21,224 bases of DNA, from positions 1-21,224 of IMG/VR virus record IMGVR_UViG_3300010151_000235; one strand, given 5' to 3'. Below, piece by piece: positions 4,017 to 20,648 of this stretch. This DNA is from a virus. The position numbers were made by a program, and so were the translations under genes. How positions within the stretch are numbered: position 1 is the first letter of the stretch; each line of letters starts with the position of its first letter. Under the pieces are notes generated by a model. The model had not been told where the DNA came from, ran no database searches, and saw nothing but the letters and a program-made list of their open reading frames with translations.

Positions 4017-5573
4017 ATGAGTGAAACAATTGTAAAACATCTTAATTTTGGCGAAGATGCTAGATTTAAGATATTTACTGGAATAGATAAACTCACTAAA
4101 GCTGTTAGCTCTACACTAGGAGCTAGCGGCAAGTGTGTTATTTTAGAAGATGCACAAGGTAATCCACAAATAACAAAAGATGGAGTAACAGTAGCGGATT
4201 CTATAACTTTACTAGATCCAGTGGAAAATATGGGAGCTCGTCTTCTAAAAGAAGCAGCCCGTAAAACAGTTAAAGAAGCAGGAGATGGCACAACAACTGC
4301 CACGGTTTTAGCACACGCTATATTACACGAAGCCTATAAAGTGATAAAATCGGAAAATCCGCGACAACTAAAAGAGGGGATAGATAATGCCGTAAAGAAA
4401 GTTATTAAATACTTAGAAAAAACTTCTAAACCTGTTCAAGGAAAAGGAATTACTAGTGTAGCAACTATTTCAGCTAACAATGATCAAGTATTAGGAAATA
4501 TAATAGCTCAAGCATTTAAAGAGGTGAATGAAACTGGAATAGTAATTATGGAAACCCATGATGAACCTAATACAATAGTAGAAGTAGTAGATGGTGCTCA
4601 ATATGATAAAGGATTAAAAAATCCTCATTTTATTACTAATGCTGATAAAGGTACCTCTGAACTGGAAGATGTATATATTTTACTAGTAGAAAATAAAATA
4701 GAAAATATTAGACAAATCCAGGGAATATTAGAATTTATAATTAAAGGTAATAAAAGTTTATTAATTATTGCTGATATGGATCCTAATGTTGTTTCTGCAT
4801 TAGCAATGAATAAAATTAAAGGAAATATAAAGATAAACGTAATAGACGCACCAGTATATGGTGTAAACAAACTGAATACATTACAAGATTTGTCTTTAAT
4901 TACTGGTGCTACTATAATTAATGAAGATTTGGGAGATGACATGGAAATGGTTACTATAGATCATTTAGGTAGATGTAATAAAGTAGTAACAAATTATGCA
5001 GAAACAATTCTTCAACGAAATGATTATATTGAAGAAGTAGAAGAAATTGTAAAAGATTTAAAAGTAACTTTACAAAAGGAAACTAATCCAACTGTAATTA
5101 TAAATTTAGAAAAAAGAATTGGAAGACTATCTGGAAAAGTAGCTATTGTAAAAGTAGGTGCTAGTTCAGAAGTAGAATTAAAAGAAAAGCGAGATAGAGT
5201 TGAAGATGCTATTTGTGCTACAAAAGCTGCAATCAAAGAAGGTATAGTGCCTGGAGGTGGAATAGCGTTATTAAATGCTTCAAATAAAATAAAAACTAAA
5301 TCAATTAGTGAAAATGTTTTATTAAAAGCGATACAATCCCCTTATCAAACAATTTTGGAAAACGCAGGTATATTAGAATATGAAATACCTGAAGAAATTG
5401 GGAAGGGATTAAATGTGGTTACAGGAGAAACGGTAAATATGGTAAAGTCCGGAATAGTAGATCCACTACTAGTAACTAAAAGTGCTTTGAATAATGCAGC
5501 TTCCGTAGCCACTACTATATTATCCACTGATTGTGTAATCAATAACTTGAGAGCGAATGAAGGCAGTAGGTAA
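4017..5573 (+). CDS. groEL: Phage-encoded chaperonin GroEL (Hsp60)
   Basis: A 518-residue group I chaperonin, close to full bacterial length (about 545), with all three domains. The equatorial ATP site is intact: ITKDGVTVA (residues 52-60) and GDGTTTATVLA (89-99, with D90 equivalent to E. coli D87). The intermediate-domain catalytic Asp is D397 in VEDAICATKAA, followed by the GGG loop at 413-415. The apical domain spans about 190-375 (GAQYDKGLKNPHFI, LLIIADMD). The C-terminal equatorial segment DPLLVTKSALNNAASVATTI is present, but the Gly-Gly-Met tail is absent. TLGPKG of bacterial GroEL is TLGASG here, so the usual Pro is Ala. It should form an ATP-driven folding chamber with the overlapping GroES downstream, probably for virion proteins. 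The start ATG follows AATAAA without Shine-Dalgarno. Confidence 0.97.
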   Translation: MSETIVKHLNFGEDARFKIFTGIDKLTKAVSSTLGASGKCVILEDAQGNPQITKDGVTVADSITLLDPVENMGARLLKEAARKTVKEAGDGTTTATVLAHAILHEAYKVIKSENPRQLKEGIDNAVKKVIKYLEKTSKPVQGKGITSVATISANNDQVLGNIIAQAFKEVNETGIVIMETHDEPNTIVEVVDGAQYDKGLKNPHFITNADKGTSELEDVYILLVENKIENIRQIQGILEFIIKGNKSLLIIADMDPNVVSALAMNKIKGNIKINVIDAPVYGVNKLNTLQDLSLITGATIINEDLGDDMEMVTIDHLGRCNKVVTNYAETILQRNDYIEEVEEIVKDLKVTLQKETNPTVIINLEKRIGRLSGKVAIVKVGASSEVELKEKRDRVEDAICATKAAIKEGIVPGGGIALLNASNKIKTKSISENVLLKAIQSPYQTILENAGILEYEIPEEIGKGLNVVTGETVNMVKSGIVDPLLVTKSALNNAASVATTILSTDCVINNLRANEGSR

Positions 5574-5817
5574 ATATATAGTTATAAAAGAATTACAAGA
5601 AAAAACCACTGAAACAAAAGGTGGTTTACTCTTGTCTGAGAAACAAAGAGAAGATATAAGATATCAAGAAGCTGAGGTATTAAACCCAGGTTCTGATGTA
5701 ACATTATTAAAAGTAGGTGACAAAATCTATTACGATCGACACGCTGGCTTTAATATTGAAATCAATAAAAAAATGTTCAAAGTAATTAAAGAACAAGATA
5801 TAGTAATAGTAATATAA
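5557..5817 (+). CDS. groES: Phage-encoded co-chaperonin GroES (Cpn10)
   Basis: An 86-residue Cpn10, slightly shorter than E. coli GroES (97). The N-terminal strand KYIVIKELQE is followed by the mobile loop at residues 16-32, with GGLLL at 22-26 in place of the GroES GGIVL that docks on GroEL. Then come EAEVLNPGSDV (38-48), the KVGDKIYYD strand (52-60) and a C-terminal KEQDIVIVI, all in the expected Cpn10 order. The roof loop looks minimal. It overlaps the end of groEL by 17 bases, which suggests translational coupling. The order groEL-groES is the reverse of the usual bacterial groES-groEL operon. It should cap the phage GroEL and might also work with host GroEL. Confidence 0.93.
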   Translation: MKAVGKYIVIKELQEKTTETKGGLLLSEKQREDIRYQEAEVLNPGSDVTLLKVGDKIYYDRHAGFNIEINKKMFKVIKEQDIVIVI

Positions 5818-11212: not shown

Positions 11213-12037
11213 ATGCCTTTAGTAAATCAAAATGTAAATACTATTCCTGCTTTTAAGCGAGTTAAAGGTCCACCAGCATGTACTGATCCTTATGCTTTTC
11301 ATTTTAATGGAGCAAATAATTCTGTAACGGCAGACGCTACGGATCCAATTTTTAATATAACTAATACTATTAGTATTTCAGCGTGGTTTAAAATAGATCC
11401 AGCAATACCTGCTCCTGTTGCAGGTACATTATACATGATAGCAGACAAAGCTAGTGGAATTCCAGGTGGAAATGCTGGGTATAGTTTATATGTTAGACAA
11501 AACGCTACTAATAATAAAATTGCTTTTACCGTTAATTTAGGTAATGGTAATCCACTCTCACAAAGACGTGTAGATTTTAATATTACCGATTTTGATACTC
11601 ATCATGTAGTAGGAACTTATGATGGAGTTGACACGTTAAGACTATTTGTGGATGGAGTTGAAGAAGATTCACAGACAATTCCACTCGGAGGATCAATACC
11701 AGTTCAACCTAGCCCATTTTGTATAGGTAATACGAATACGGGAACATTACCTAATGAATTTTATGGAACATTAGATGAAATATCAGTTTGGAATACCAAC
11801 CTAAATTTAGCACAAGTTCAAACAATATATGATTTTAATACTAATTGTGATTTAAATGCTTTAGGTTACTCATATAATTTAGTAGCTTGGTATAGAATGG
11901 GGGAAAATGCACAGTGGAATTTACCAACTGCACCCAATGAATGGACATTAACTAATATAAGTACGTCTACTACTCCAAATGGGGAATTAGAATCTCAAGG
12001 AATGCTTGAAACTGATCGAGTGCCTGGGATAATATAA
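11213..12037 (+). CDS. LamG/concanavalin A-like domain virion protein
   Basis: A 274-residue protein with a LamG-type jelly-roll spanning about residues 27-215. The marks of the family are YAFHFNGANNSVT near the first strand, ISISAWFKID (53-62), HHVVGTYDGVDTLRLFVDG (130-148) and FYGTLDEISVWNTNLNLAQV (183-202). The C-terminal 55 residues (NLVAWYRMGENAQWN onward) form a short extra segment. LamG domains in phages usually bind carbohydrate, so a receptor-binding or capsid-decoration role is inferred. There is no signal peptide, as expected for a virion protein. It starts one base after the previous gene. Confidence 0.85.
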   Translation: MPLVNQNVNTIPAFKRVKGPPACTDPYAFHFNGANNSVTADATDPIFNITNTISISAWFKIDPAIPAPVAGTLYMIADKASGIPGGNAGYSLYVRQNATNNKIAFTVNLGNGNPLSQRRVDFNITDFDTHHVVGTYDGVDTLRLFVDGVEEDSQTIPLGGSIPVQPSPFCIGNTNTGTLPNEFYGTLDEISVWNTNLNLAQVQTIYDFNTNCDLNALGYSYNLVAWYRMGENAQWNLPTAPNEWTLTNISTSTTPNGELESQGMLETDRVPGII

Positions 12038-12322: not shown

Positions 12323-12545
12323 AATTCGCAAAATAAGCATTGGATCAGATTACAAAAACGATGCAATGCATTATTCAGTAGGACAAGAAGTATATGGTGG
12401 ACATATTATATGTGATATTGTAGGAAACAATAATGAGGGTGAATATTTAATATATATTAAAAAATCTAACGAAGTGTTACCTTGGAAAAAGTTTAATTCT
12501 AATATGGCTATTGCCGTAGAATATAACTTACAATATAGTGAATAG
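12312..12545 (+). CDS. Small conserved-looking protein, unknown function
   Basis: A 77-residue protein with a short beta-rich fold: KIRKISIGSDYKNDAMHY, then VGQEVYGGHIICDIVGNN, EYLIYIKKSNEVLPWKKF and IAVEYNLQYS. I chose ATG 12312 rather than the GTG at 12309. It overlaps both neighbours by a few bases (11 upstream, 8 downstream). I recall similar small proteins in uncultured marine phages just before a GroES-like gene and terminase; unverified. There are no catalytic motifs. Confidence 0.75.
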   Translation: MSNKIRKISIGSDYKNDAMHYSVGQEVYGGHIICDIVGNNNEGEYLIYIKKSNEVLPWKKFNSNMAIAVEYNLQYSE

Positions 12546-13242
12546 TTTATATGATTATATTGTAGAACCAATAGGAGAAAGATACAACAATAAGGTTGAC
12601 GTTGGTGATAAAGAATTAATACTTAATACTCAAATAGAAACTTTTAAAATTATTAATAAAAAAGCTAAAGTAATAAGTGTTCCTAGCGCTTATGAACTTC
12701 CAATTAAAGTTGGAGATATAGTATATATTCATCATAATGTTTTTAGAAAGTTCTACAATATGAAAGGAAAACAACAAAATAGCAGATCTTATTTTAAAGA
12801 TAATCTATATTTTTGTTCTCCTGATCAAATATATTTATATGAAAATAAAGGGAAAAGAAAATCATTTTTAGATAGATGTTTTGTTAAGCCGTTAAAATCT
12901 AAAAAACTTGGTGAAAAATTAATAAATAATCTAGGAATATTAAAGTATGATAATTCTCAATTAAATACTTTAAATATAAATAAAGAAGATTTAGTAAGTT
13001 TTCCTCATGGAAGAGAATGGGAGTTTATTATAGATGAGGAACTATTATATTGTATGAAATCAAAAGATATTTTAATTAAACATGAACGTCAAGGAAACGA
13101 AGAAGAATATAATCCAAGCTGGACAACTAGCAGTACAAGAACTAATAAAAGTAGCGGAAGAACCAATTGTGGATACAGGGGAGGATGTGTCTGCGGATCG
13201 ACTAAAAAATGCTGCCGCAACAAAAAAACTAGCAATATTTGA
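12538..13242 (+). CDS. Putative tandem GroES-like (Cpn10-like) protein
   Basis: A 234-residue protein starting at GTG. Residues 5-103 and 112-182 look like two Cpn10-like units. Unit 1 has YDYIVEPIGERYN, KKAKVISVPS, IKVGDIVYIHHNVF and FCSPDQIYLY. Unit 2 has DRCFVKPLKSKK, INKEDLVSFPHGREWEFI and ELLYCMKSKDILI, which parallels the GroES end VGDIVIFNDGYG then NEEVLIMSESDILAI. The order (strand, G-V strand, VGD strand, DIL end) fits GroES, but neither unit has a clear GGIVL mobile loop. Residues from about 190 are Cys/Arg/Asn/Ser-rich and overlap the next gene in another frame, so the conserved part probably ends near NPSW (192-195). A chaperonin-cofactor role is inference. Confidence 0.6.
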   Translation: MNSLYDYIVEPIGERYNNKVDVGDKELILNTQIETFKIINKKAKVISVPSAYELPIKVGDIVYIHHNVFRKFYNMKGKQQNSRSYFKDNLYFCSPDQIYLYENKGKRKSFLDRCFVKPLKSKKLGEKLINNLGILKYDNSQLNTLNINKEDLVSFPHGREWEFIIDEELLYCMKSKDILIKHERQGNEEEYNPSWTTSSTRTNKSSGRTNCGYRGGCVCGSTKKCCRNKKTSNI

Positions 13243-13357
13243 TGCTTTTGAAATTCTAACACGAATTCAAGAAGAAGAAGAATTATTAAATACTAAATCT
13301 AAAGATCAAAAAGAAAAGAGAGTATTTAAAGGATTTGCAGAAGGGAGAAGTAAATGA
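13082..13357 (+). CDS. Small helical protein just upstream of TerL, possible small terminase-like
   Basis: A 91-residue protein, mostly helical, with an Ala/Glu/Lys-rich core (QAGQLAVQELIKVAEEPIVD, then SADRLKNAAATKKLAIFDAF). The first 161 bases overlap the end of the upstream gene in another frame. An in-frame stop at 13073-13075 and the lack of later Met codons in the conserved part support the ATG at 13082. It ends as ATGA overlap with terL, so it is probably translationally coupled. Position suggests a terminase partner, but I see no helix-turn-helix that would prove a small terminase. Confidence 0.75.
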   Translation: MNVKETKKNIIQAGQLAVQELIKVAEEPIVDTGEDVSADRLKNAAATKKLAIFDAFEILTRIQEEEELLNTKSKDQKEKRVFKGFAEGRSK

Positions 13358-15579
13358 AATATGAGCAATTTCTTTGTAAAGAATTAAAAGATGTTGTTAA
13401 TCCTAAAATTCTTAAAAAGCAAAATAGATTAAAAAAATGGGAGTATGGTTATAATGCAGATTATGATTTTGTTGTAATTAGTAAAACAGGAAAAATTGGA
13501 ACTATCGTTGAAATACAAAATCTCCGCATTGCTTTACCAACAGTTGAAAACCCGTATAAGCGTAGTGAAGAAAAAGAAGAACAATATTGGGAAAAAACCG
13601 AATACCCTAAAATCTTAAATAGAATTAAAAGTCGATTCGACTGGGATGAATATCCTAATGATTTTAAAGAAAAATGGTATGATTATATAGATGAAGAATT
13701 TAAACGAAGAGACGAGGGTTATTGGTTTTTTAATAATGCTGTGCCTACTTATATTACTGGTACTCATTACATGTATCTCCAATGGTCAAAAATCGATGTT
13801 GGAGCCCCTGATTATAGAGAAGCCAATAGAATTTTCTACATCTTTTGGGAAGCATGTAAAGCCGATAATAGATGCTACGGAATGTGCTATCTTAAAAATA
13901 GAAGATCCGGATTTTCCTTTATGTCATCAGCAGAACTTGTTAATCAGGCAACAATCTCAAGTGATGCAAGATTTGGTATATTATCCAAAACAGGAGCAGA
14001 TGCTAAAAAAATGTTTACAGATAAAGTTGTGCCAATATCCGTTAATTATCCATTTTTCTTCAAACCGATCCAAGATGGTATGGATCGCCCTAAAACTGAA
14101 TTAGCTTATAGAGTACCAGCATCTAAACTAACTAGACGCAAGCTAGATGATAATGTTCAATTAAAAGAATTACAAGGATTGGATACTACTATAGATTGGA
14201 AAAATACTGGGGACAATTCTTACGATGGTGAGAAATTAAAAATATTAGCACATGACGAAAGTGGAAAATGGGAAAGACCGGACAATATATTAAACAATTG
14301 GAGAGTTACAAAAACTACATTAAGATTAGGTCGACGAATCGTAGGCAAGTGTATGATGGGTTCAACTTCAAACGCTTTAGATAAAGGAGGTAATAATTTC
14401 AAAAAATTATATTATAACAGTGATGTTACAAGAAGAAATAGAAATGGACAAACCAGTTCAGGACTTTATTCTTTATTCATTCCCATGGAGTGGAATTACG
14501 AAGGATTTATGGATACGTTTGGTTTGCCTGTATTTATTACTCCTAAAAAATCAGTTTTAGGAATTGATAGAATTCCAATAAAAATTGGAGTAATAGAACA
14601 TTGGGAGAATGAGGTAGATGGATTAAAAGAAGATCCTGATAGTTTAAATGAATATTATAGACAATTTCCCCGTACAGAAAAACATGCTTTTAGAGATGAA
14701 GTAAAAGAATCTTTATTTAATTTAACTAAAATCTATGAACAAATAGATTATAATGAAGAATTAAATAATACTGCTCATATAACTAGAGGATCTTTTCATT
14801 GGGTAAATGGAGTAAAAGACACGCGGGTCATGTTTACTCCTAATAAAGATGGTAGATTTAATATATCGTGGATTCCTCCGGCCGAGTTACAAAATAATGT
14901 TATTTTAAAAAATGGATTAAAACGTCCTGGCAATGTTCATATGGGAGCATTTGGATGTGATAGTTATGATATAAGTGGAACAGTTGATGGTAGAGGTTCA
15001 AATGGATCTTTACATGGATTAACGAAATTCTCAATGGAAGACGCGCCACCTAATCATTTTTTTTTAGAATATATAGCTAGACCCCAAACTGCAGAAATAT
15101 TTTTTGAAGAAGTATTAATGGCATTAATATTTTATGGAATGCCTTTACTTGCAGAAAACAATAAACCACGATTATTATATTATTTAAAACGACGAGGTTA
15201 TAGAGGATTTTCAATAAATCGTCCAGACAAAGTTTGGAATAAATTATCTTTAGCAGAAAAAGAAATTGGTGGAATTCCTAACTCAAGTGAAGATATAAAA
15301 CAATCTCACGCCGCAGCTATTGAAGCATATATTGAAGATTATGTTGGTTTACATGGAGAATTAATGGGAGACATGTATCATCAGAAAACATTAGAAGATT
15401 GGTCTCAATTTAACATTAATAATAGAACCAAACATGATGCATCTATTAGTTCAGGTTTAGCAATTATGGCATGTAATAGAAACAAGTATAAACCTGTAGC
15501 AGATAGAACAACTAAAACAATAGATTTAGGATTTATAAAATATAACAACGACGGAGTAGTTTCAAAAATAACGGAATAA
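13354..15579 (+). CDS. terL: Terminase large subunit (packaging ATPase-nuclease)
   Basis: A 741-residue motor that cuts concatemeric DNA and pumps it into the procapsid through the portal. The ATPase core has a deviant Walker A at residues 181-189 (KNRRSGFSF, no GK(S/T)), Walker B at 295-302 (LKILAHDE with D301 and E302) and a coupling-type motif GSTSN at 336-340. The nuclease domain follows, with an RNase H-like first strand and acidic residue at GCDSYD (534-539, D536 likely metal-binding). The length exceeds many terminases (400-600), with a long N-terminal extension (1-120). It overlaps the upstream gene as ATGA, and the portal start follows its stop directly. Confidence 0.93.
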   Translation: MKYEQFLCKELKDVVNPKILKKQNRLKKWEYGYNADYDFVVISKTGKIGTIVEIQNLRIALPTVENPYKRSEEKEEQYWEKTEYPKILNRIKSRFDWDEYPNDFKEKWYDYIDEEFKRRDEGYWFFNNAVPTYITGTHYMYLQWSKIDVGAPDYREANRIFYIFWEACKADNRCYGMCYLKNRRSGFSFMSSAELVNQATISSDARFGILSKTGADAKKMFTDKVVPISVNYPFFFKPIQDGMDRPKTELAYRVPASKLTRRKLDDNVQLKELQGLDTTIDWKNTGDNSYDGEKLKILAHDESGKWERPDNILNNWRVTKTTLRLGRRIVGKCMMGSTSNALDKGGNNFKKLYYNSDVTRRNRNGQTSSGLYSLFIPMEWNYEGFMDTFGLPVFITPKKSVLGIDRIPIKIGVIEHWENEVDGLKEDPDSLNEYYRQFPRTEKHAFRDEVKESLFNLTKIYEQIDYNEELNNTAHITRGSFHWVNGVKDTRVMFTPNKDGRFNISWIPPAELQNNVILKNGLKRPGNVHMGAFGCDSYDISGTVDGRGSNGSLHGLTKFSMEDAPPNHFFLEYIARPQTAEIFFEEVLMALIFYGMPLLAENNKPRLLYYLKRRGYRGFSINRPDKVWNKLSLAEKEIGGIPNSSEDIKQSHAAAIEAYIEDYVGLHGELMGDMYHQKTLEDWSQFNINNRTKHDASISSGLAIMACNRNKYKPVADRTTKTIDLGFIKYNNDGVVSKITE

Positions 15580-17958
15580 ATGATTTATACTAATACACAA
15601 AGTTCTTTTCCTGATCAAGTAGTGCCTCAAGAAGAAAAAATGTCCATCGAGTATGGACTTATGGTAGGGAGAGCAATTGAAGGAGAATGGTGGGCTGCAG
15701 GAGTAGGAGGAGCGAGATATACAAATAATTACAATATTTTTCATAGAAGAAGATTATATGGTCGTGCTGAACAGTCTATTCAAAAGTATAAAGATGAACT
15801 GTCGATTAATGGAGATTTATCTTATTTAAATTTAGATTGGACTCCAGTTGCTATTATTCCTAAATTTGTAGATATAGTAGTCAATGGAATGGCTGAAAAG
15901 ATTTATGATATAAAAGCTTTTGCACAAGATCCAGTTTCACAACAAAAAAGAACAAATTACGCTAGAAAATTACATAAAAATATAGCTACTAGAGCTTTTA
16001 TGGAACAAGTAAAAGCACAGTTAGGAGAAGATATTTCTAAGGTTCAAAACATGGAAAATGTTCCGGAAACAGAAGAAGAATTAGAAATTCATATGCAATT
16101 AGATTATAAACAATCTATTGAAATTGCAGAAGAAGAAGTAATTAGTAATACATTAGCAAGAAATAAATTTGAATTAACTAAACGTAGGTTTTACAAAGAT
16201 TTAGTAGAACTAGGATTAGGTTGTGTAAAAACAAATTGGAATGCAGCTAATGGAGTTACGGTAGATTATGTAGATCCAGTTAACATTGTTTATTCTTATA
16301 CTGAAGATCCTAATTTTGAAGACATATACTATGTTGGAGAAGTAAAGAATATTTCTTTACCTGAGCTTAAAAAGGAATTTCCAAATTTAACTACTGGAGA
16401 ATTAGAGCAAATTCAAAAATTTCCAGGTAATAGTAACTATAGGAGAAATTATAGAGGAAATAGAGATGATACAACTGTTCAAGTTTTATATTTTGAGTAT
16501 AAAACATATGCTGATCAAGTATTTAAAATAAAGAAAACTCCATACGGATTAGAGAAGGCTTTAGAAAAACCTGATACTTTTAATCCTCCTCCTAACGATG
16601 GATTTGATAGAGTAGCGAGATCAATAGAAGTATTATATCATGGAGCTAAAATATTAGGACATCCTATTATGTTAAAATGGGAAGTTGCTGAAAATATGAC
16701 TCGTCCTAAATCTAATTTGACTAAAGTAAATATGAATTATACTTTATGTGCTCCAGATTTATATAAAGGACGTATAACCTCATTAGTAGAAAGAATGATT
16801 ACTTTCGCTGATATGATTCAATTAACTTCTTTAAAACTACAACAAGTATTATCTCGTATGGTTCCAGATGGAGTTTATTTAGATGTAGATGGATTAGCAG
16901 AAGTAGATTTAGGAAATGGAACAAATTACAATCCTAAAGAAGCTTTAAATATGTATTTCCAAACAGGATCTATTGTTGGTAGATCTATGACTCAGGATGG
17001 AGATATGAATCCAGGTAAAATTCCTATTCAAGAGTTACAAACCTCTGCAGCTCAAGCAAAAATCCAATCATTAATTCAAACTTATCAGTATTATTTACAA
17101 ATGATAAGAGATGTAACTGGTTTAAATGAAGCTAGAGATGGAAGTAATCCAGATAAAGATGCATTATTAGGTTTACAAAAACTAGCGGTAGCTCAATCTA
17201 ATGTGGCGACCCGTCATATTTTAGATGCAGGACTTTATTTAACATTAAGAACTTGTGAAAATATTGCATTAAGAATTGCTGATTCTTTAGAATTTGAATT
17301 AACTAATGAAGCTTTAGTTAATAGTATTAGTTTATATAATGTAGCTACTTTAGAAGAAATAAAAGAATTACATTTATATGATTTTGGTATATTTCTAGAA
17401 TTAGAACCAGATGAAGAAGAAAAACAAATTTTAGAACAAAATATTCAAATCGCATTAAAAGGAAATCAAATTAATTTAGAAGATGCAATTGATATCAGAA
17501 ATGTTCACAATTTACGTTTAGCTAATCAATTATTAAAACTTAAACGTAGACAAAAAGCTAAGGAAGATCAACAAGCTCAACAACAAATGATTCAAGCTCA
17601 AGCTAAAGCAAATGCTGAATCAGCAGAAAAAGCAGCAATGTATGAAGTACAAAAACAAGAAGCATTAGCTCAAACTCAATTACAAATTGAAAAAGGTAAA
17701 TCAGATTTTGAAATTCAACGAATGCAAAGTGATTTACAAAACAAAATGACATTAGCTGATCAAAAATTTAAGTATGACATGCAATTAGCTCAAATAGATA
17801 TTGACGAAGGAGTGTCAAGAGAAGCTATGATAGAAGATAGAAAAGATAAAAGAACTAAACTAGCTGCTAGTCAACAAAGTCAAATGATTGCTCAACGTCA
17901 AAACGATTTATTACCAACTGATTTTTTAAATGAAACAGATGGACTACCAATGCCATAA
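15580..17958 (+). CDS. Portal protein (long form)
   Basis: A 792-residue protein that should form the 12-subunit ring at the capsid vertex through which DNA passes. The ATG follows the terminase stop with no gap. The N-terminal half has NNYNIFHRRRLYGRAEQSIQ and LDWTPVAIIPKFVDIVVNGM (residues 85-104), typical of P22-like or crAss-like portals. The region after it holds the beta-rich wing (EVLYHGAKILGHPIMLKWEV) and the stem helices (MIRDVTGLNEARDGSNPDKD). Residues about 655-775 form a very long Gln/Lys/Ala-rich coiled coil, comparable to the barrel of long portals. Length and order (TerL, portal, scaffold, capsid) suggest a short-tailed phage, which is inference. Confidence 0.9.
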   Translation: MIYTNTQSSFPDQVVPQEEKMSIEYGLMVGRAIEGEWWAAGVGGARYTNNYNIFHRRRLYGRAEQSIQKYKDELSINGDLSYLNLDWTPVAIIPKFVDIVVNGMAEKIYDIKAFAQDPVSQQKRTNYARKLHKNIATRAFMEQVKAQLGEDISKVQNMENVPETEEELEIHMQLDYKQSIEIAEEEVISNTLARNKFELTKRRFYKDLVELGLGCVKTNWNAANGVTVDYVDPVNIVYSYTEDPNFEDIYYVGEVKNISLPELKKEFPNLTTGELEQIQKFPGNSNYRRNYRGNRDDTTVQVLYFEYKTYADQVFKIKKTPYGLEKALEKPDTFNPPPNDGFDRVARSIEVLYHGAKILGHPIMLKWEVAENMTRPKSNLTKVNMNYTLCAPDLYKGRITSLVERMITFADMIQLTSLKLQQVLSRMVPDGVYLDVDGLAEVDLGNGTNYNPKEALNMYFQTGSIVGRSMTQDGDMNPGKIPIQELQTSAAQAKIQSLIQTYQYYLQMIRDVTGLNEARDGSNPDKDALLGLQKLAVAQSNVATRHILDAGLYLTLRTCENIALRIADSLEFELTNEALVNSISLYNVATLEEIKELHLYDFGIFLELEPDEEEKQILEQNIQIALKGNQINLEDAIDIRNVHNLRLANQLLKLKRRQKAKEDQQAQQQMIQAQAKANAESAEKAAMYEVQKQEALAQTQLQIEKGKSDFEIQRMQSDLQNKMTLADQKFKYDMQLAQIDIDEGVSREAMIEDRKDKRTKLAASQQSQMIAQRQNDLLPTDFLNETDGLPMP

Positions 17959-19184: not shown

Positions 19185-20648
19185 ATGCCTTTAGGAAATT
19201 TTACAGTGCAAAATGCAGATTTAATTCCTACGCAAGATCAATCTATATTGTCTACTAATTATTTACAATGGACTGATCCAACTGCGGCGGATTTCGCTGA
19301 TTTTGCTCAACAATATCTCCCTGAACTGTACGAACAGGAAGTGGAAAGATTCGGAAATAGAACATTATCCGGATTTTTAAGAATGGTTGGCGCGGAAATG
19401 CCAATGACATCAGATCAAGTTATTTGGTCTGAACAAAATAGATTACATATTGGTTATGATGATGTATCTAAAGGAATACCAGTACCTGGAACTGGGGTAA
19501 CTACGTTTACAGTTAACATTCCTGTTGGAAATGAAGTAGTAATCCGAGTTAATCAAACATTCGTGGTTTTTGATCCAATGAGTGGATTAACATTGAAAGG
19601 ATTAGTTATAACTGCTCCAAACCCAGGTGCTCCAGGAACATTTACATTTGATGCTGTTTGTTATACTGCTGCAGATTTTACTGCATTAGGAGCAACAAAC
19701 TTAAGATTATTTGTTTATGGTTCTGACTTTGCCAAAGGAACATTAGGTATGGATGGATCAGTTACTCCGTCTTTTACTCAATTTCATAACAAACCAATTA
19801 TAATTAAAGATAAATACGAAGTTAATGGTTCTGATACTGCTCAAATTGGGTGGGTGGAAGTTGCCACAGAAGATGGAACATCCGGATTCTTATGGTATAT
19901 GAAAGCTGAGTCAGAAACTAGATTACGATACGAAGATTACTTAGAAATGGCTATGGTTGAAGGTGAATTAGCTGCTCCATTGTCTGGAGTTGCAACTTCA
20001 GGTTTAGCAACATCAGGTTCAGGTACTCAAGGATTATTTGCCGCACTTAACACTAGAGGTAATGTGTATGCAGGTTTTGCTGGAGCTCCAAACCCAGGTG
20101 CGGGTGCATTAGGTGATTTTGATCAAATACTACAATGGTTGGATTTTCAAGGTGCTATTGAGGAAAACATGTTATTTTTAGATAGAGGAACAGCTCTAGA
20201 TTTTGATGATATGATCGCTACTCAAGCAGGTAGTTCTTATAACGCTACAAGTGCAGCATCTTATGGTCTTTTTGACAACGAAGCTGAAATGGCATTAAAT
20301 TTTGGATTTTCCGGTTTTAGAAGAGGTTCTTATGACTTCTACAAAACTGATTGGAAATATCTAAATGATGCTAGTACAAGAGGAATGGTTAATGATATTA
20401 AAGGAGTTTTAGTACCAGCAGGTACTTCAACTGTATATGATCAAATGTTAGGATCTAATATTAGACGACCATTTTTGCATGTAAGATATAGAGCTTCAGA
20501 AACAGATGATAGAAGAATGAAATCATGGATTACTGGTTCTGTTGGAGGCGCTTACACATCTTCATTAGATGCGATGGAAGTCCATTACTTGTCAGAAAGA
20601 TGTCTTTGTGTACAAGCGGCTAATAACTTCGTATTATTCGTCGAGTAA
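19185..20648 (+). CDS. Major capsid protein (HK97-fold, inferred)
   Basis: A 487-residue protein after the scaffold candidate. The N terminus is helical (DPTAADFADFAQQYLPELYE). Residues 96-185 are a beta-rich block (TFTVNIPVGNEVVIRVNQTF, then VVFDPMSGLTLKGLVIT) that could be an inserted surface domain. The core contains SFTQFHNKPIIIKDKYEVNG (196-215) and GFLWYMKAESETRLRYEDYL (234-253), and the C-terminal part contains FSGFRRGSYDFYKTDWKYLN. These resemble, from memory, capsid proteins of uncultured marine and crAss-like phages. The HK97 fold is expected from the family and position, not proved here. Start ATG follows AAACTTAAAATT, the usual A-rich leader. Confidence 0.85.
   Translation: MPLGNFTVQNADLIPTQDQSILSTNYLQWTDPTAADFADFAQQYLPELYEQEVERFGNRTLSGFLRMVGAEMPMTSDQVIWSEQNRLHIGYDDVSKGIPVPGTGVTTFTVNIPVGNEVVIRVNQTFVVFDPMSGLTLKGLVITAPNPGAPGTFTFDAVCYTAADFTALGATNLRLFVYGSDFAKGTLGMDGSVTPSFTQFHNKPIIIKDKYEVNGSDTAQIGWVEVATEDGTSGFLWYMKAESETRLRYEDYLEMAMVEGELAAPLSGVATSGLATSGSGTQGLFAALNTRGNVYAGFAGAPNPGAGALGDFDQILQWLDFQGAIEENMLFLDRGTALDFDDMIATQAGSSYNATSAASYGLFDNEAEMALNFGFSGFRRGSYDFYKTDWKYLNDASTRGMVNDIKGVLVPAGTSTVYDQMLGSNIRRPFLHVRYRASETDDRRMKSWITGSVGGAYTSSLDAMEVHYLSERCLCVQAANNFVLFVE

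Follow-up and report, generated by a model that had tools for sequence, protein, structure and literature searches.

The stretch of DNA analysed here (the window) is the whole of the IMG/VR record IMGVR_UViG_3300010151_000235, 21,224 bases in length, and is part of the genome of a tailed virus, whose hosts are probably marine flavobacteria. Three chaperonin-type genes were found in it: an overlapping groEL–groES pair and, directly before the terminase region, a gene for a two-domain GroES-like protein, which was absent from the earlier note on this DNA. The features are listed below, with positions numbered along the window.

4017–5573, plus strand: groEL, encoding a group I chaperonin of 518 amino acids (Pfam PF00118, phrog_5725 and residue alignment)
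4284–4286, plus strand: Asp90 in GDGTTTATV, equivalent to D87 of E. coli GroEL (alignment; Asp in 42 of 42 clade members)
5205–5207, plus strand: Asp397, equivalent to E. coli D398, ATP hydrolysis (alignment; Asp in 42 of 42 clade members)
5557–5573, plus strand: 17-base overlap of the groEL end with the groES start (4–23 bases, mostly 17, in 80 of 80 relatives)
5557–5817, plus strand: groES, encoding a single-domain co-chaperonin of 86 amino acids (Pfam PF00166 and alignments)
5620–5634, plus strand: GGLLL, the GroES mobile loop (G23, L24 and L26 invariant in 30 clade members)
12538–13242, plus strand: second co-chaperonin-like gene, 234 amino acids, with two GroES-like domains and a tail (phrog_13932; AlphaFold and Foldseek)
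12571–12654, plus strand: loop of domain 1, residues 12–39, with conserved K.LI.NT, of low confidence in the model; a candidate mobile loop
12853–13131, plus strand: domain 2, residues 106–198, the C-terminal half GroES-like by sequence (hhalign), with a short loop without GGhhh
13082–13357, plus strand: open reading frame of 91 amino acids between the two-domain gene and the terminase gene, in the position of a small terminase
13354–15579, plus strand: terminase large subunit, TerL (phrog_6681, E = 2.6e-161)
15580–17958, plus strand: portal protein (phrog_6547, E = 4e-138)
19185–20648, plus strand: virion structural protein of 487 amino acids (phrog_13704, E = 4e-84)

Downstream of the groEL–groES pair lie genes for an amidase, a holin, terminase, portal and a virion structural protein, in agreement with the late-gene setting described in the earlier note. 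In a search of 50,697 phage records, matches to TerL were confined to flavophages related to Pervagoviridae, Pachyviridae and Elemovirus; the TerL, portal and head proteins of these phages are homologous to those of the window and their gene order is related. Family searches with the 91-residue reading frame gave no match. The 487-residue protein has a single family match, 'virion structural protein' (phrog_13704), and its fold model (mean pLDDT 47) is too poor for a capsid fold to be called. It is the probable major capsid protein and a possible folding client of the chaperonin.

Full-length coverage of the GroEL is indicated by its match to Pfam Cpn60_TCP1 (PF00118; 198.9 bits, cut-off 34.3), which spans model positions 1–487 of 490, and phrog_5725 is matched with E = 2.6e-136. 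The score against the NCBIfam equivalog TIGR02348 is 470.8 bits, below the cut-off of 582, while that against the broader subfamily model NF000592 is 481 bits, above the cut-off of 397. By these profile scores the protein is a member of the GroEL family, yet not a certified bacterial equivalog, and its identity to bacterial GroEL is ~40%. The ATP site is intact, as had been noted from the motifs GDGTTTATVLA and VEDAICATK (D397): in E. coli numbering, D52, D87, D398 and D495, together with the adjoining glycines and threonines (GDGTT), are kept in all 42 clade members aligned. The replacement of TLGPKG by TLGASG and the lack of a Gly-Gly-Met tail were likewise seen. F204, L237 and N265 are retained in the alignment; of the apical contact positions, V264 is replaced by Met, and L234, a contact position for GroES and substrate, is Gln in every clade member, which was counted against a working chaperonin machine. 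The acidic residues of the cavity wall, D359, D361 and E363, are lost in the window sequence.

The canonical inter-ring contacts (R452–E461, E434/D435, S463 and V464) are absent from the window GroEL clade. In the alignment, the segments corresponding to E. coli residues 429–435 and 462–466 are deleted in 42 of 42 clade GroELs and neither R452 nor E461 is conserved, while R452, E461, S463 and V464 are retained in the six flavobacterial GroELs included. Mutation of R452, E461, S463 and V464 in E. coli GroEL gives a single ring (PMC5575113). From this clade-wide loss and the behaviour of the E. coli mutants, the GroELs of the window clade are predicted to form single or weakly paired rings, a prediction which depends on the alignment within a variable region. 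The E. coli single-ring mutant stays trapped with GroES, so that a functional single ring would require compensating changes. Altered ring–ring contacts and single rings have been reported for the chaperonins of Pseudomonas phages EL (gp146) and OBP (PMC7185714, PMC5934643), which are, however, far more diverged than the window GroEL and reported to be co-chaperonin-independent.

The GroES matches Pfam Cpn10 (PF00166) with 46.9 bits (cut-off 21.1) and phrog_3188 with E = 8.6e-14, and carries the GGLLL loop as previously described. In length it falls ~11 residues short of E. coli GroES, and its roof region is shorter; the full roof hairpin is missing in this protein and in the two-domain protein alike. 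A shortened roof is also a feature of T4 gp31, a phage protein of GroES fold, whose wider opening is thought to help fit the ~56-kDa capsid protein (PMC6318259). T4 differs in that it requires the host GroEL. The 17-base overlap of the reading frames 4017–5573 and 5557–5817 was confirmed, as was the gene order, groEL then groES, which is reversed relative to groS–groL in E. coli.

The window groES is 92–97% identical to the groES of four relatives, whose GroELs are 74–78% identical to that of the window. DNA identity to these four relatives rises near position 5517 and continues to the groES end. Over 5517–5817, which comprises the last groEL codons and groES, it is ~90–95%, as against ~70–80% in the remainder of groEL. 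This stretch is an apparent recombination tract and, judging from the identities, a single groES allele has spread between lineages, which suggests that it functions with somewhat different GroELs.

The two-domain gene (12538–13242) renders the framing of the locus as a chaperonin pair incomplete. Its product matches phrog_13932, 'co-chaperonin GroES', over residues 1–181 (E = 1.4e-22), and homologues were called GroES by independent annotators. The AlphaFold model (mean pLDDT 77) shows a pair of beta domains followed by a disordered tail. With Foldseek, the best solved structure was chloroplast Cpn20 (7ekq_R), which is matched across both domains over 199 columns (E = 3.7e-5, TM 0.45–0.53); GroES came next, and the match to the single-domain gp31 was weaker. 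A search of PDB sequences with the profile of the protein gave no match. By hhalign against the GroES profile, domain 2 is significant over 38 columns (E = 9.7e-6) and domain 1 is not (E = 0.013), and the assignment of domain 1 comes from the predicted fold and from the PHROG match, which covers both domains. The homologue in Baltivirus scores 33.3 bits with Pfam Cpn10, above the cut-off. A mobile loop was not found in each domain: the long conserved loop is in domain 1, and that of domain 2 is short and without GGhhh. By the model, the protein has a predicted GroES-like fold; it is probably a second lid, perhaps for head proteins. The chloroplast Cpn20/Cpn11 system (7ekq) similarly has tandem GroES domains beside a single-domain co-chaperonin, and tandem and single co-chaperonins form mixed seven-domain lids there (PMC5780408, PMC4242682). 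Cpn20 differs in having a recognisable mobile loop in both domains, and its likeness to the phage protein is one of predicted fold.

The distribution of the three genes was surveyed in the best 80 of at least ~600 IMG/VR matches to the window GroEL (65–80% identity). In all 80, groES comes directly after groEL, overlapping it and in the same orientation. Among the 45 contigs searched whole, single-domain GroES was present in every one and the two-domain gene in 44, the lone exception being a 12.9-kb fragment. A second survey was seeded by the structural protein and thus presupposed no chaperonin. It gave 21 contigs, 15 of which carry the two-domain gene; the other six stop ~4.5–6 kb upstream of the structural gene, short of the place of the two-domain gene. 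GroEL was present in 12 of the 13 contigs that extend 8 kb or more beyond the two-domain gene on its upstream side. Nine of the 21 contigs appeared to be relatives without GroEL, and this was rejected, as all but one of them stop before its expected place. Taken together, the whole-contig and structural-protein-seeded counts indicate that the three-gene chaperonin set is near-universal in the window clade.

Among named phages, MW202828 (Podoviridae sp. ctfjg026) and Elemovirus (Flavobacterium phages vB_FspP_elemo) resemble the window in having overlapping groEL then groES and a two-domain GroES-like gene directly before the terminase. The window TerL is 64% identical to that of MW202828 and 45% to that of Elemovirus, and the GroEL is 36–40% identical to theirs. 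Unlike in the window, the groEL–groES pair and the terminase of Elemovirus are encoded on opposite strands. GroEL, a single GroES and the two-domain protein by TerL also occur in Callevirus phi38:1 (Pervagoviridae) and Maribacter phage Panino, but there groEL and groES do not overlap; in phi38:1, cpn10 comes first and one gene separates it from GroEL. Baltivirus phi18:3 (Pachyviridae) has both the single- and the two-domain GroES genes, the latter directly upstream of the terminase as in the window, and no GroEL was found in its whole genome. The lids of phi18:3 would consequently need the host GroEL, which suggests that the two-domain protein can serve a host GroEL. Gundel_1 has none of the chaperonin genes.

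The earlier description of the pair as uncommon stands in so far as an apparently complete phage-encoded GroEL–GroES pair is present; within the lineage, however, such a pair is the rule, as the 80 relatives, Elemovirus, MW202828 and Callevirus phi38:1 attest. In 2017, GroEL was reported from 36 genomes of marine phi38:1 relatives (PMC5332604), cpn10 is one of the proteins shared by Pervagoviridae (PMC8776804), GroEL and GroES homologs were both noted in Panino (PMC11590407), and it has been stated in general that some phages carry both partners (PMC7185714). The pair in these phages is thus of an already described kind, to which the two-domain lid and the ring-interface deletions add interest modestly. 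Far from being a curiosity, self-sufficient chaperonin systems are a regular part of the gene content of these Bacteroidota phages, which form a large and apparently common group and pair GroEL with two probable types of lid.

The ancestry of the GroEL was investigated with a tree of 51 rows, in which the window clade has support of 100/99 and consists of viral sequences throughout. It joins other Bacteroidota-phage GroELs, with support of 98/94 for the immuto phage and 98/88 for Bacteroides phage DAC19, though the branching order among the other phage GroELs is unsettled owing to long branches. A constrained grouping with Flavobacteriia was rejected (AU p = 0.00023), and the bacterial GroELs within the best 80 matches reached ~43% identity at most. 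On this phylogeny the window GroEL is a deep phage lineage and no recent host gene. The tree, the AU test and the synteny gave nothing in favour of a contig artefact or of a recent capture of a host groEL operon, and 80 further, independent contigs share the gene order of the window; the probability of such an origin, including the chimera considered in the earlier note, is negligible. The GroEL of Vibrio phage Va1 falls beside E. coli with Gammaproteobacteria, so phage GroELs are of more than one origin. The crAss-like phage cr108_1 has a shorter GroEL of 494 amino acids, encoded a few genes ahead of the terminase in a genome without a Cpn10 match. GroEL also occurs in phage-collection records named Acinetobacter MD-2021a, in small Listeria/Enterococcus records and in a 501-kb Salmonella contig, which may be bacterial contamination.

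For the function of these genes, we consider it fairly probable that they form a GroEL/GroES machine specific to the phage, which folds late phage proteins and whose lids are roofless in the manner of gp31. The phage GroEL would hydrolyse ATP and capture phage proteins in the unfolded state, large virion proteins being the likeliest; it would act as a single or loosely paired ring, as the loss of contacts suggests. The adjacent GroES would close the chamber, docking through its GGLLL mobile loop, and the lack of a full roof hairpin may give large clients room. It is by analogy with the gp31 roof and the T4 capsid protein that late virion proteins appear likely clients. The two-domain protein would be the probable second lid, perhaps for head proteins, and may also serve the host GroEL.

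Alternatively, the phage GroEL could prevent aggregation independently of a lid, as proposed for EL gp146, with GroES mainly redirecting the host GroEL. The EL chaperonin shows no interaction with E. coli GroES, and a mode of action without encapsulation has been proposed for it (PMC7185714). The drifted apical contacts L234Q and V264M, the recently exchanged groES allele beside GroELs that are 72–81% alike, which implies a lid loosely fitted to any one GroEL, and the retention of lids without GroEL in phi18:3 point in the same direction. Nevertheless, the groES reading frame begins within groEL in all of the relatives, and the window GroEL is ~40% identical to bacterial GroEL with F204, L237 and N265 kept, while the EL chaperonin is 22% identical and its genome has no recognised GroES (PMC7185714). 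We regard lid-independent action as improbable.

A separate question is whether the two-domain protein is a lid at all. It could be a head-assembly or packaging factor with a borrowed fold, since its gene directly precedes the terminase region in the window, the clade and the named phages, a location which is compatible with a structural role too; the short loop of domain 2 and the unrecognisable sequence of domain 1 are also compatible with this. The tandem co-chaperonin Cpn20 as nearest predicted fold, the hydrophobic LI pair in the long flexible loop of domain 1, the Baltivirus score and the independent annotations argue for a lid, and we hold a packaging factor to be unlikely, if worth keeping in mind. 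An extension of the favoured chaperonin machine would be a chloroplast-like system, with a single-ring GroEL and mixed single- and two-domain lids (for example, three double chains and one single chain making seven domains), the mix tuning the chamber size for large head proteins. This is a speculative proposal, against which stands the lack of a visible mobile loop in domain 2, and we give it little weight. If the single-ring and double-lid predictions are true, the cultured Elemovirus and Callevirus would be small natural systems in which to probe why bacteria favour double rings and seven identical lids.

Some minor observations concern the region before the terminase. The C-terminal part of the two-domain gene (13082–13242) overlaps the start of the 91-residue reading frame, out of frame. 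The two-domain reading frame is 226–235 amino acids long in the window and about ten relatives, ~201 being usual, and its conserved EEYNPSW may reflect dual coding. The idea that NPSW marks the start codon of the next gene was dismissed, as the start at 13082 precedes it. At 11213–12037, the late region encodes a protein with a LamG/concanavalin-like lectin domain (Pfam Laminin_G_3), a candidate adhesion gene.
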